A DNA stretch of 5,731 nt from assembly GCA_030628225.1 (NCBI GenBank), contig DAOVRJ010000167.1, positions 1-5,731 on the forward strand, written 5' to 3'. Source of the stretch: Candidatus Zixiibacteriota bacterium (GTDB taxonomy: Bacteria; SM23-81). Position 1 is the stretch's first letter. Each line of letters opens with the position of its first letter. Made by a program: the position numbers and the translations under genes. Shown here in pieces: positions 1,493 through 5,731 of the stretch. Below the pieces are notes generated by a model. It was not told where the DNA came from and did not search any database. It saw only the letters and a program-made list of their open reading frames with translations.

Positions 1493-1690
1493 TTGGGTTG
1501 CAGCCTAAAGGTCAGAGGGTGTTGTGTCTCTGCGGCTATAGACCTCAACTGAGTGCTGCTCGCAAATCGTTCCGCAGAGGGGGTAGCGGAGGACAGCGAG
1601 GCGAGCGGCCGGCTGAACGGGAGAGTGAAGACGGCATCGGCGGCGAAGCCGCCGATAGCGAGCCGGTGCCCGCCATTCTGGAAATAGTGC
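1493..1690. other. GC-rich island with nested inverted repeats, possible structured RNA or dispersed repeat
   Basis: This stretch is clearly richer in G+C than its flanks. It contains a perfect 9-bp hairpin, ATCGGCGGC (1636-1644), loop GAA, GCCGCCGAT (1648-1656). It also has a perfect 8-bp inverted repeat, CTCTGCGG (1528-1535) with CCGCAGAG (1572-1579), enclosing 36 bases. A 5-bp pair, AGGTC (1509-1513) with GACCT (1541-1545), crosses that repeat in a pseudoknot-like order. None of the stems is followed by a T-run, so they are not terminators. It could be a structured RNA, a degenerate mobile element or an interspersed repeat; it matches no RNA family that I recognise. Confidence 0.4.
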
Positions 1691-1693
1691 ATT

Positions 1694-1728
1694 GAAAAAG
1701 GCAAAATGAAAAGTGAAAAATGCAAAAC
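1694..1728 (+). repeat. Degenerate heptamer array 1 (five units, 35 bp)
   Basis: Five consecutive 7-base units of the form G[CA]AAA[AG][TGC] fill this interval, starting with GAAAAAG at 1694-1700 and ending with GCAAAAC at 1722-1728. A further weak unit, GAGAGTC, follows. The same unit recurs in opposite orientation at 1779-1813 and in this orientation at 1963-1997, and each of those arrays is also 35 bp long. AT-rich low complexity alone would not predict the steady 7-base phase. Confidence 0.72.
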
Positions 1729-1778
1729 GAGAGTCAAACCCTCAAGATCCAAGATGAGCACATAGTTTGTACAAGATC

Positions 1779-1813
1779 AATTTGAAATTTTCACTCTGCA
1801 TTTTTCATTTTGC
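1779..1813 (-). repeat. Degenerate heptamer array 2 (five units, 35 bp), inverted
   Basis: On the minus strand from 1813 to 1779 there are five 7-base units, beginning GCAAAAT (1813-1807) then GAAAAAT (1806-1800) and ending TCAAATT (1785-1779). It faces array 1 across a 50-base spacer, so the pair forms an imperfect inverted repeat. The second unit is identical to a unit in each of the other two arrays. Confidence 0.72.
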
Positions 1814-1817
1814 ATTG

Positions 1818-1909
1818 GGGGCCACACCAGAAGGTATACAGGTATCCCTTTTAATTATATTGTTCACTATTACTGAGAGCTCCCGGCGAAAAGATCCCAC
1901 AGTGGCCCC
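1818..1909. repeat. 8-bp perfect inverted repeat GGGGCCAC / GTGGCCCC bounding a 76-base AT-rich segment
   Basis: GGGGCCAC at 1818-1825 and GTGGCCCC at 1902-1909 are exact reverse complements. They enclose 76 bases that include an AT-rich core near 1848-1870 and the short direct repeat GGTAT-ACA-GGTAT. The left arm starts four bases after heptamer array 2. The arms could be the ends of a small non-autonomous element or a hairpin. No target-site duplication is evident. Confidence 0.4.
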
Positions 1910-1962
1910 AGGGCACGCTGGCTGCAGCGAGGGGGAGACTTCCCCCTTCAAAAAGATTCATT

Positions 1963-1997
1963 TCAAATTGCAAAGTGTAAATTTTAAATTGAAAAAT
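1963..1997 (+). repeat. Degenerate heptamer array 3 (five units, 35 bp)
   Basis: Five 7-base units run from TCAAATT (1963-1969) through GCAAAGT and GTAAATT to GAAAAAT (1991-1997). They share phase and length with arrays 1 and 2 and the orientation of array 1. The array ends about 60 bases before the start codon of the C25 peptidase, so it may lie in that gene's promoter or leader region. Confidence 0.68.
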
Positions 1998-2058
1998 GAA
2001 GTGCCAGATGGCATTTTAAATACTTTCCATTTACGTCTTTCAACAAGGAGCCGTTGGT

Positions 2059-4317
2059 ATGAAACATCACCGTTCGACCATTCCCGGCATGCTCATCGTC
2101 ACAGCCCTGCTGGTCACGGTCACATTCTGCCCGCGGCTTGCCCGGGCCGGTCATCTGGACATCACCCTGACGGCTGGTGACTATCGAATCGTCCCCGGAG
2201 AAAATGGATCTCACCGGGTGGAGATGGAGGAGTTCGGCGCCCTGCTCATTCCGGGCAAACCCAGGCTGCCGGCCCGAGTTTTCTCCATCGCCCTGCCGCC
2301 GGGCGCCCGGGTCACATCGGTCACCTTTCAGCCGGAGCCGGCGGTACCCGTCCCCGGCGTCCAGCGCATCGCTCCCGTGCCCCCCACTTTTCCCCTGACA
2401 GAGGACGCCAGCCTGAGGGCGCTGAAGATCTCCCAGTACGAGGAGGCCTACCGGTCATGCTACGGCACCGACCAATCCTTCCCGAAGCAGCCTGCCCTGA
2501 AGGTGGGCCAGGGCGCTTTGCGGCGCTACAATTTCGTGCGCCTGGCCTTCTTTCCCCTGGCCTATCAGCCCCGATCCGGCCGGCTGTGGCACACCCGCCG
2601 GGTTCGGGTGCGAATCGAGTACCAGCCGGCAGACGGCGATCTTGGGCAGCGAGGGCTGTGGCAGGATCTGGCCGCCGAGAAGATGGCCGCCCGGCTGCTG
2701 TTCAATTACGAACAGGCCAAAACCTGGTACCCGCAGGCTGCGAAATCAAAAGCACTGTACGACTACGTGATCATCTCCCCCCCCAACCTGGTCCCTGCCG
2801 TGGCTCCACTGACCGGCTGGAAGCAGACCATTGGTAGGACGGTCAATGTGGTCACCACTGACTGGATCAAGGGCGCCTACTCCGGTGATGACCTGGCCCA
2901 CAAGATCAGGAACTTCCTGCGGGACAAGTATCCCTCTGAGCAGTGGGGCATCGAGGATGTGCTCATCGTCGCCGGCATAGACAGCATTCCCATGCGCACC
3001 TGTCACGTGGATCCCCCCGGCCATACGCATCCCACCCCAACCGATTACTACTATGCCGAGCTGTCTCAGCCGGACAGCCTGTCCTGGGACTCCGACGGGG
3101 ATGGATATTACGGCGAATACCTGGAGGATGAAATCGACTTCGCCCCCGAGGTTTACGTGGGGCGCATTCCGTATAGCGACACCACGAATGTGCGCAAGAT
3201 CTGCCAGAAACTGGTCGATTTCGAGAGAGATACGGGAAGCTGGAAGCAAAGAGCCCTGCTTCTGGGGGCCATGGCCAATTTCGAGAACGAGAACAATACA
3301 GGCTGGCCGCGCACCGACGGGGCGGCCCTCATGGAGGTGATAGCCGATAGCCTTCTCTCCGGGTGGACCTACACCAAGATGTACGAGGAGGCCGGCATCC
3401 ACCCCTCCATCTACCCTCACGATTACGCCCTGACCAACGATAACGTTGTCAACGACTGGAAGGTGGGCCAGTATGCTGTGGTCAACTGGAACGCTCATGG
3501 CAACACGTCTGGCGCCTACCGGAAATACTGGGCCTGGGACGATGGAGACAGCATCCCCGAATACGGCGAGATGAGCTCGCCCGCTTTTTTGCTGATCAAC
3601 GACGTCCGCCAACTGGATGATGATTATTCCTCCATCTGCTTCGCCGCCTCCTGCCTTAACGCCAAGCCAGAGGTCGGCAATTTGGCCAGGTCGCTGCTGG
3701 GCAACGGATCCGCGGGCATCGTGGCCGCCACCCGCACGTCCTGGTACAACTGCGGCTGGGCCCAGCCCGACGATGGCGGGGTGGCCTCCATCGACTACCA
3801 CTTCTTCCGCTATCTGCTCTGCGAGGGTGAAACGGTGGGTCAGGCCATGTACAGTGCCCTGGTCTACTATCACGATTATCTGTTCGAGGCCTACCCGGGA
3901 GATGATATCTGGTCGCCCCAACAGAACATGATGTGCCACAACCTCTACGGAGATCCCTCCCTCATCCGCGAGGGAGTGGACGCCGTCCCTCCGGCCATGG
4001 TAGAGGACCTCGTGGCCGCACTGGCCGATACGGCCATCGTCCTGCAGTGGTCCCCGGTCACCGAGGACATCTACGGCAATGAGGAGATGGTGGCTCACTA
4101 CGTGGTTTACCGCGATGTTACACCGGACTTCACCCCGGCCGCGGAGGACTCCGTCGGGTTGAGCACAGGCACCAGTTTTACAGACAGCGCCTGCGGCACC
4201 GGCGATGTGAGTCTCAACCACTACTATGTGGTCAAAGCCGTGGATGGCCTGGGTCACAAGGGGGCATTCTCGGAAGCGGCGGGAGAGTTCGATAAGTTAT
4301 TGGATGACGGGAGTTAG
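2059..4317 (+). CDS. Secreted gingipain-like (C25 family) cysteine peptidase with C-terminal FN3-like domain
   Basis: The product has 752 residues and looks complete. AAGGAG at 2045-2050, eight bases before the ATG, sets the start. Residues 1-30 form a signal peptide (basic KHHR, hydrophobic core, cleavage expected after LARA). Residues about 31-225 resemble the C25 propeptide, a beta-rich region with the ALLIPGKPRLPARVFSIALP signature. The catalytic domain runs from about 235 (YDYVIISP) to 637. The expected catalytic dyad is His480 (WNAHGNTSG) and Cys532 (FAASCLNAKPE, followed by LARSLL), as in gingipains. DSDGDG at 344-349 looks like a calcium-binding loop just before the EVYVGRIP motif. 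LYGDPS at 629-634 closes the domain. Residues about 641-742 have a fibronectin type III-like pattern. The chain stops soon after, with no recognisable type IX secretion sorting domain, unlike many C25 relatives. Arg/Lys specificity, as in gingipains, cannot be assumed. It is divergent from the C1A peptidase gene. Confidence 0.94.
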   Translation: MKHHRSTIPGMLIVTALLVTVTFCPRLARAGHLDITLTAGDYRIVPGENGSHRVEMEEFGALLIPGKPRLPARVFSIALPPGARVTSVTFQPEPAVPVPGVQRIAPVPPTFPLTEDASLRALKISQYEEAYRSCYGTDQSFPKQPALKVGQGALRRYNFVRLAFFPLAYQPRSGRLWHTRRVRVRIEYQPADGDLGQRGLWQDLAAEKMAARLLFNYEQAKTWYPQAAKSKALYDYVIISPPNLVPAVAPLTGWKQTIGRTVNVVTTDWIKGAYSGDDLAHKIRNFLRDKYPSEQWGIEDVLIVAGIDSIPMRTCHVDPPGHTHPTPTDYYYAELSQPDSLSWDSDGDGYYGEYLEDEIDFAPEVYVGRIPYSDTTNVRKICQKLVDFERDTGSWKQRALLLGAMANFENENNTGWPRTDGAALMEVIADSLLSGWTYTKMYEEAGIHPSIYPHDYALTNDNVVNDWKVGQYAVVNWNAHGNTSGAYRKYWAWDDGDSIPEYGEMSSPAFLLINDVRQLDDDYSSICFAASCLNAKPEVGNLARSLLGNGSAGIVAATRTSWYNCGWAQPDDGGVASIDYHFFRYLLCEGETVGQAMYSALVYYHDYLFEAYPGDDIWSPQQNMMCHNLYGDPSLIREGVDAVPPAMVEDLVAALADTAIVLQWSPVTEDIYGNEEMVAHYVVYRDVTPDFTPAAEDSVGLSTGTSFTDSACGTGDVSLNHYYVVKAVDGLGHKGAFSEAAGEFDKLLDDGS

Positions 4318-4560: not shown

Positions 4561-5731
4561 ATGAGCAAGAGAATGTTTGGAGTTCTGGTAGTTGCTCTGT
4601 GCGTCCTGGGTCTGAGCGGCTTTGCCCTGGCGGGCAACGATCTACAAAATCCAGGTTTCGAGACCTGGACAATCCCTGACATCCCAGATAACTGGATGTT
4701 AAACGGCACCGGCGGCCTTGACACCTTGGTATTTGCCGATCAAGAGGATGGCCTTTTTCACAGCGGCCTCTACAGCGTAGCCCTGACCTGTTCCACCAAA
4801 GACACTCGCTGGCTGGAGCAGTCGACCCCGGTGACGCCTGATTCGTGCTATCGGTTCAGCATCTATGGTTGGGACAACGATCTGTACGGCAAGGCCAGCG
4901 TGAACATCCGCTGGTACTATGACGATTCAGACACCAGCTATATCAGCGGCTATTACGGCAGTTACACCTCGGATCTAGCCGCCTGGCAGCTGATGAACAC
5001 CGGAGCCCAGAAAGCGCCGGCGACGGCAGCCTACGCCCACTGTGAGATCCGCGTCTACGAGGACAACTACGACTCTCTCACCTGGACCCACACGACCATG
5101 TATTTCGACGACGCCGTCTTCGACACCATCACCTGCATCACGACATTCGACACCCTGACCATCCCGGAGATACAATACTTCACCATTATGGGAACTGGCA
5201 ACGATTGCTATCCTTCCACGGTGTATGATAGCGTCTTCTTCACATCTGGTATCGTCACCGCCATCAGCACCAACAAGTATTCGGGCACTTACTGGATTCA
5301 GGACGCCGACACCGTTTTGAGCGGAATATACGTCTATGATTTTAAGGACGTTGCACTCGGTGACGAATTGTTTTTCGTTGGACAAGAGGACGAATACTAT
5401 GGCGTGTCGGAGATGAAGAACCTCACCGGAGAATTTCGTAAACTCTCCACGGGGAACCCGCTGCCCGATCCTATCGATATCGTGCCCGGCGATCTGGCCA
5501 AGAGCTATCAGGCCGGCTGCGACGTCGACGTCGAGCCCTACGAGGGTCAGCTGGTCAAGCTGAGCAACGTCATCTGTGTCGTGGCACCCGACGTGAACGA
5601 CCAGTGGTACGTGACCGATTATGCTTACACCGACACCTGCCAGATCGACGATTACGTCTACGATTACCCTCTCACTCCCGCGGTGGGCGACACCTTCCTG
5701 AGCATCACCGGAATCGTCAATTACAGATACA
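4561..5731 (+). CDS. Secreted protein with carbohydrate-binding-like jelly roll and ExeM/YhcR-type OB-fold domain, 3' end outside window
   Basis: The frame is open from the ATG at 4561 to the last base (390 codons plus 1 base), so the C-terminus is missing. The start is supported by AAAGGAG at 4546-4552. Residues 1-24 are a signal peptide ending FALA, with mature GND. Residues about 28-188 begin LQNPGFETW and end MYFDDAVFD, the layout of CBM4/9-like or galactose-binding jelly rolls. Residues about 198-390 (TIPEIQYFTIMGTG, GIVTAIS, YWIQDAD, GIYVYD, YEGQLVKLSNV, SITGIVNYRY) match the OB-fold domain of ExeM and YhcR extracellular nucleases and many multidomain surface proteins. No nuclease catalytic motif is visible; one could lie beyond the window, as could a cell-surface sorting domain. 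Its own promoter and long leader separate it from the upstream peptidase gene. A binding or surface role is the safest reading; nuclease activity is only a possibility. Confidence 0.88.
   Translation, partial: MSKRMFGVLVVALCVLGLSGFALAGNDLQNPGFETWTIPDIPDNWMLNGTGGLDTLVFADQEDGLFHSGLYSVALTCSTKDTRWLEQSTPVTPDSCYRFSIYGWDNDLYGKASVNIRWYYDDSDTSYISGYYGSYTSDLAAWQLMNTGAQKAPATAAYAHCEIRVYEDNYDSLTWTHTTMYFDDAVFDTITCITTFDTLTIPEIQYFTIMGTGNDCYPSTVYDSVFFTSGIVTAISTNKYSGTYWIQDADTVLSGIYVYDFKDVALGDELFFVGQEDEYYGVSEMKNLTGEFRKLSTGNPLPDPIDIVPGDLAKSYQAGCDVDVEPYEGQLVKLSNVICVVAPDVNDQWYVTDYAYTDTCQIDDYVYDYPLTPAVGDTFLSITGIVNYRY

Follow-up and report, generated by a model that had tools for sequence, protein, structure and literature searches.

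The stretch of DNA considered here raises the question of why three short arrays of a degenerate seven-base unit should stand, in alternating orientation, in the intergenic region that separates two divergent genes for secreted proteases. These genes (according to Pfam, those of a C1 papain-family enzyme and of a C25 gingipain-family enzyme with a propeptide) lie within the window, that is, the whole stretch analysed, which comprises 5,731 nucleotides from a Candidatus Zixiibacteriota bacterium. Our answer, which we consider probable though well short of certain, is that a dispersed structured element, which is non-coding, is present in the window as a single long-form copy, arrays 1 and 2 being the arms of its insert and array 3 part of its flank, and that the arrays are passengers, grown by slippage, of an element copied in trans. 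The features of the window are these:

3-1172, - strand: flanking open reading frame, divergent from the next
2059-4317, + strand: flanking open reading frame
4561-5730, + strand: third open reading frame, without a Pfam match
1527-1580, + strand: upstream hairpin, TCTCTGCGG / CCGCAGAGG, read from the sequence
1576-1948, + strand: dispersed structured element, long form, with 5' boundary AGAGGGGGTAGCGG and 3' boundary CTTCCCCCTT, delimited from own-genome copies
1666-1671, + strand: 5' strand GTGCCC of the P5 stem, split by the insert from its partner GGGCAC (1911-1916)
1669-1913, + strand: insert of about 245 bp in the apical loop of hairpin P5, missing from short-form copies
1694-1728, + strand: heptamer array 1, left arm of a convergent pair (TRF, units read directly, inverted repeats)
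1779-1813, - strand: heptamer array 2, right arm, 50 bp from array 1 (TRF, units read directly)
1817-1909, + strand: second inverted repeat of the insert, GGGGGCCAC (1817-1825) / GTGGCCCC (1902-1909), read from the sequence and paired in the fold
1929-1948, + strand: terminal hairpin H6, GAGGGGGAGACTTCCCCCTT, the family's most conserved part (alignments; R2 match 1902-1948)
1963-1997, + strand: heptamer array 3 (TRF), in 3' flank class D1, which is common to a subset of element copies

An earlier note on this DNA focused on the arrays, and the larger covarying structured element around them went unnoticed there. Its description of the arrays themselves is borne out: there are three, each of five phased units, in the order + - +, and the gaps between them are exactly 50 and 149 bp. 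TRF detects period 7 at all three, and the units, read directly, are GAAAAAG, GCAAAAT, GAAAAGT, GAAAAAT and GCAAAAC in array 1; GCAAAAT, GAAAAAT, GCAGAGT, GAAAATT and TCAAATT in array 2; and TCAAATT, GCAAAGT, GTAAATT, TTAAATT and GAAAAAT in array 3. Array 1 pairs with array 2 in the predicted RNA fold, and these two are the arms of a single unit inside the insert; array 3, part of a flanking repeat, forms an independent 3' flank of the element. The suggestion that arrays mark the edges of inserted segments thus holds in so far as arrays 1 and 2 lie within a segment found in long copies only, but the three are not equivalent edges. Elsewhere the same GTGCCC/GGGCAC stem occurs with a short loop and without the insert (L145). 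The upstream hairpin looks, from its sequence, like the H0 hairpin of the element's minimal form with a long loop, and in a sister copy (L047, 894-1083) the R2 match covers the part equivalent to it.

How far such arrays exceed chance was gauged with a five-unit profile built from the window's 15 units (it was thus trained on the window, whose contig lay outside the sample) and applied to contigs C1-C45 of the same genome, 308.5 kb picked by number only, with dinucleotide shuffles of 150-bp blocks as the control. The profile found 16 arrays vs 0.1 in shuffles and no matches scoring 25 to 34, so that the arrays are not a product of chance. Within 15.7 kb of non-ORF DNA from these contigs, 24 segments have period 7 (0 after shuffling), two have period 8 and five period 9; periods 4-6 and 10-12 yielded none. 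The unit classes in C1-C45 are AAAAATG-like (7), CGGAAC-like (5), GAATCTC-like (5), CCAGNATC-like (2) and others such as TAACCCC (5), and the window's unit therefore represents just one of several classes in what is a general heptamer phenomenon of the genome. A further tandem class there has period 9, with GAGAGTTTA-like units (L099, 3550-3601; L108, 3564-3658; L037, 5961-6015). Genome-wide counts derive from searches together with about 770 kb of own contigs, five of them masked; the genome is a draft in 306 contigs, with many element copies at contig ends. In these 770 kb, 89 arrays were delimited (many of them clonal copies; five further calls were masked contigs), having four to nine units, so that the number five, constant in the window, is genome-wide merely the commonest (52 of 89).

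STRR are intergenic heptamer arrays of filamentous cyanobacteria, and the arrays here resemble them in being phased heptamer tandems, in excess over chance and mostly intergenic. One alternative, which strikes us as somewhat unlikely, is that the arrays are STRR-like intergenic slippage repeats whose place inside the element is coincidental. The earlier note had allowed that seven-base periodicity might simply be common in the genome's intergenic DNA; it is indeed common there, with at least five unit classes, which suits this alternative, but it stands in large, discrete excess over shuffled sequence. Similar arrays also occur alone, many of those in the C1-C45 profile search standing apart from the element. 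For heptamer repeats, slippage of the polymerase by seven bases has been proposed (PMC4679880, PMC4692102). Counting against our own reading, arrays are enriched beside the element to a modest degree (22 flanks, where the intergenic rate predicts 12.4). The arrays are new members of a kind already known, because convergent degenerate heptamer arrays have been described in Xanthomonas (PMC4692102). The Xanthomonas and Nostoc repeats, GGGAATC and GGGGA(T/C)T, are heterogeneous heptamers (PMC4692102), and those of Xanthomonas, at well over 100 sites per genome, are likewise degenerate, phased, intergenic seven-base units; unlike them, the unit here, G[AC]AAA[AGT]T, is A-rich and lacks G-quadruplex potential, and a clonal set of the arrays rides inside another dispersed element. 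The TAACTGA repeats of Beggiatoaceae and cyanobacteria (PMC4679880) are also intergenic, patchy across distant taxa and sometimes mixed with other heptamers, but have an exact unit, are mostly direct and lie upstream of genes, whereas here the unit is degenerate and the pairs convergent.

What weighs against coincidence is, first, that arrays 1 and 2 are common to many long copies at different sites, with 83-94% identity, and hence have moved together with the element, and, second, the constancy of the convergent arrangement described below. Searches of the own genome gave 46 matches with window positions 1660-2040 as the query, 58 with 1170-2058 and 41 with a short-form consensus; the element occurs at more than 50 places. 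Long copies match the window throughout, short copies match 1348-1669 and then 1913-1954 with about 10 bases between. Such long and short copies support the earlier proposal of a dispersed genomic repeat family with frequent paired inverted arrangement. The copies have fixed ends, AGAGGGGGTAGCGG on the left and CTTCCCCCT on the right, and flanks that differ and reassort: three upstream classes (hairpin class U1; a GCCATACCC..CACG class; GAGTCTC heptamer arrays) occur with three downstream classes (D1, of array-3 type; D2, CCCAACCCAACCACCCCAAATG..; D3, GGAACGCGG arrays) in most combinations. A related genome, G001, carries sequence resembling the flank of array 3 (81% over 70 bases) but no element, and in this lineage the flank therefore probably predates the element. 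No copy was found to have a clean empty site with target duplication, and Sphingobium plasmid neighbours yielded no informative empty site, so that we infer, rather than observe, spread by transposition; recombination between copies could explain part of it.

Array pairs less than 60 bp apart are, in the 770 kb of own contigs, + then - in 19 of 19 cases, with spacings of 28-57 bp, mostly 50; some twelve of these pairs belong to clonal copies of the long form, and roughly seven unrelated contexts are represented. The - + pairs at 147-149 bp are copies of the window's composite. Alternation of orientation, a feature of the window, is thus not general; what recurs regularly is the convergent pair, as in Xanthomonas, where 70-75 cases of two close heptamer arrays in convergent orientation are on record (PMC4692102). 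A second convergent pair within the window, upstream of the element, has octamer units (AGGATTCA-like) at 1373-1400 and 1458-1485 with a 57-bp spacer, and pieces of it recur elsewhere in the own genome. These pairs suggest a second alternative, namely that the convergent pair is a small MITE-like transposable unit, with heptamer arms as terminal inverted repeats, that was inserted once into the element's loop. Inverted arms are indeed present, and the layout recurs in L064, L093, L055, L043 and L047, in the octamer pair and, with matching unit and a 55-bp spacer between + and - arrays, at many places in a genome of another phylum (G057). Yet the spacers of unrelated pairs have no obvious sequence in common, no target duplication was seen, and the G057 pairs (L326-L333), several of them at contig ends, are in places tandem with a period of about 201 bp, which suggests local duplication; we regard this alternative as unlikely.

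The structure of the host element is best seen in its shorter copies. An alignment of 27 short copies of 128-147 nt (A1) supports seven helices with 43 pairs, in which 96.6% of cells are paired and two-sided change affects 17 pairs and 109 cells; in some copies tandem G-A mismatches replace two pairs. Its covariation score is 0.267, vs 0.110 +/- 0.008 in shuffles (0 of 500), which overstate significance because the copies are related; slid controls, which keep this relatedness, score 0.023-0.070. The z-scores for the folds of single copies range from -3.4 to -5.3. For 34 minimal elements (A2) the covariation score is 0.196 vs 0.108 (0 of 500); minimal copies are 73-108 nt long. By manual count A1 has about 26 G-U cells and about 10 A-C cells, so that the + strand is probably the folded one. 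The helices of this single-strand fold are maintained by compensatory change.

Beyond the own genome, a search of 144 other genomes with model R1 gave weaker matches in two (G020 and G092), which retain the conserved ends and have a reduced interior. R2 placed the family in five of 386 sampled genomes--the own genome, G020 and three of the genus of G092--and found it absent from the nearest relatives, G001-G003 (one genome of the same family and two of the same phylum). We take G092 to be Fibrobacter from repeat sequences common to it and named Fibrobacter records. A pattern for the 3' part matched at least 114 stretches in genome contigs (among the matches listed, mainly of Treponema, other Spirochaetes and Fibrobacter, but also of Bacteroidales, a Nitrospirae MAG, Geomonas and others) and five viral contigs; 16 plasmid records, mostly of sphingomonads, carry the element, as do seven Microviridae, in which its genome position is about the same. 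To judge from these matches, a minimal form of 75-110 nt with matching conserved ends spans unrelated bacteria, plasmids and small phages. Among the Microviridae (bajarodmic viruses), the element of L289 (1967-2040) ends a small gene between the capsid and pilot protein genes.

The covariation in A1, being strand-biased, also invites a third alternative: that the host retains the element as a cis- or trans-acting regulatory RNA or terminator, around which the arrays are products of decay. Consistent with this, the element persists with coordinated change at one orthologous locus across species of the G092 genus; most carry it, its first hairpin switching between two sequence types, and L305, L306 and L312 either lack it or have other repeats in its place. 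The same locus speaks against it, in that an opposite-strand open frame passes through the element in both genomes where it is readable (449 codons in L308, 483 in L309), a frame that presumably corresponds to coaBC. Most copies lack a U-run after the last hairpin, the taxonomic spread is patchy, and the four arrangements relative to neighbouring genes (27 >E>, 20 <E<, 19 <E> and 10 >E<, in other genomes, with simple ORF calling) show no bias, on which ground a cis-regulatory role by gene orientation was rejected. We consider this third alternative improbable. In L294-L313 of the G092 genus the element lies within an apparent coding linker, and in several species of that genus TCTCGTC heptamer arrays lie downstream of it. 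That the arrays are candidate protein-binding sites or a site-specific recombination target, as the keeping of seven-base phase while units drift might suggest, is highly improbable, several unrelated unit sequences behaving alike in one genome, which argues against a single sequence-specific protein.

Most known dispersed hairpin repeats are from Proteobacteria, and many are associated with RAYT transposases. Like the GTAG-tagged, RAYT-linked REPs (PMC3733652), the element is a dispersed, usually intergenic structure of hairpins whose stems show compensatory change and contain G-T pairs, and like them it sometimes lies within genes. The GTAG tag itself marks the foot of the main hairpin on its 5' side (columns 8-11), where it is invariant in 27 of 27 A1 copies, its last G joining the first base pair. 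REPs are single hairpins of 20-40 bp, whereas the element is 75-150 nt long with three or more helices (seven in A1), carries long, invariant runs of G and of C at either end and shows no RAYT link; it is REP-like in behaviour but lacks two defining REP features. No RAYT gene adjoins the element in the own genome (G000), whose Y1 transposases lie next to other palindromes, and Y1 transposase is absent from G092 and G020, so that a RAYT origin is unsupported by gene neighbourhood or presence. Three RAYT-like genes (L127, 561-1331; L128, 1418-2032; L129, 1101-1643) adjoin palindromes of their own, unlike the element, and at L055 (8060-8680) an IS200-like element, which encodes a Y1 transposase and is bounded on both sides by a perfect CCCCCGCTCGTGAGCGGGGG hairpin, lies between heptamer arrays. 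A TnpB partner, and with it a TnpB-linked guide-RNA element, was rejected because PF07282 is absent from all five element-bearing genomes, and reverse transcriptase as the common partner because it is present in two of the five and absent from G000, G020 and G262. None of the three mobility families (Y1, TnpB, reverse transcriptase) occurs in every element-bearing genome.

Other known systems fit no better. BOX, ERIC and the Rickettsia palindromic elements, the last of which also sit in frame within genes, are dispersed repeats of about 100-150 bp with a modular or palindromic build; the present family is set apart from them, by description, in spanning many phyla, plasmids and ssDNA phages. 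Rfam (HEARO/IscB RNA, IS605-orfB RNAs, group II introns, ribozymes), scanned against the window, own contigs, and Fibrobacter and Treponema loci, gave no credible match to the element at gathering or E<=1 thresholds, sub-threshold matches being unrelated; the attC core sites of integrons (RYYYAAC / GTTRRRY) are, by eye, not at the ends of A1 or A2; and literature on the motif sequences, on Treponema/Fibrobacter dispersed repeats and on structured RNA contained nothing relevant. The element is apparently undescribed in the families and papers searched.

Our reading of the window as a long-form copy with passenger arrays would work as follows. The arrays would grow and drift by slippage of seven-base units, would be tolerated in loops and flanks, and would become passengers whenever their host element is copied; the element, by analogy with the REP proposal, may spread as a folded single strand (DNA, or RNA via a further step) acted upon by an enzyme in trans, with recombination between copies adding to its spread. 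More tentatively, and with slightly less than even confidence, we suggest that the family (GGGGG-CGTTGC-GGGGG..CCCCC-GCAGA-GGGGG-TAGCGGAAGAC..variable..GGCTGNAGC-GAGGGGGAGACTTCCCCCT) represents a new, horizontally spreading structured class that passes among phyla, plasmids and ssDNA phages with no known enzyme attached and whose variable loops take inserts, such as heptamer-armed hairpins.

For annotators the element's motif is of use in explaining some spurious short ORFs (..SEGETSP..) and contig breaks. More generally, other repeats can carry heptamer arrays along as cargo, and a larger, strongly covarying element that occurs in Fibrobacter, Treponema, plasmids and microviruses with no attached enzyme would raise the question of how it spreads.
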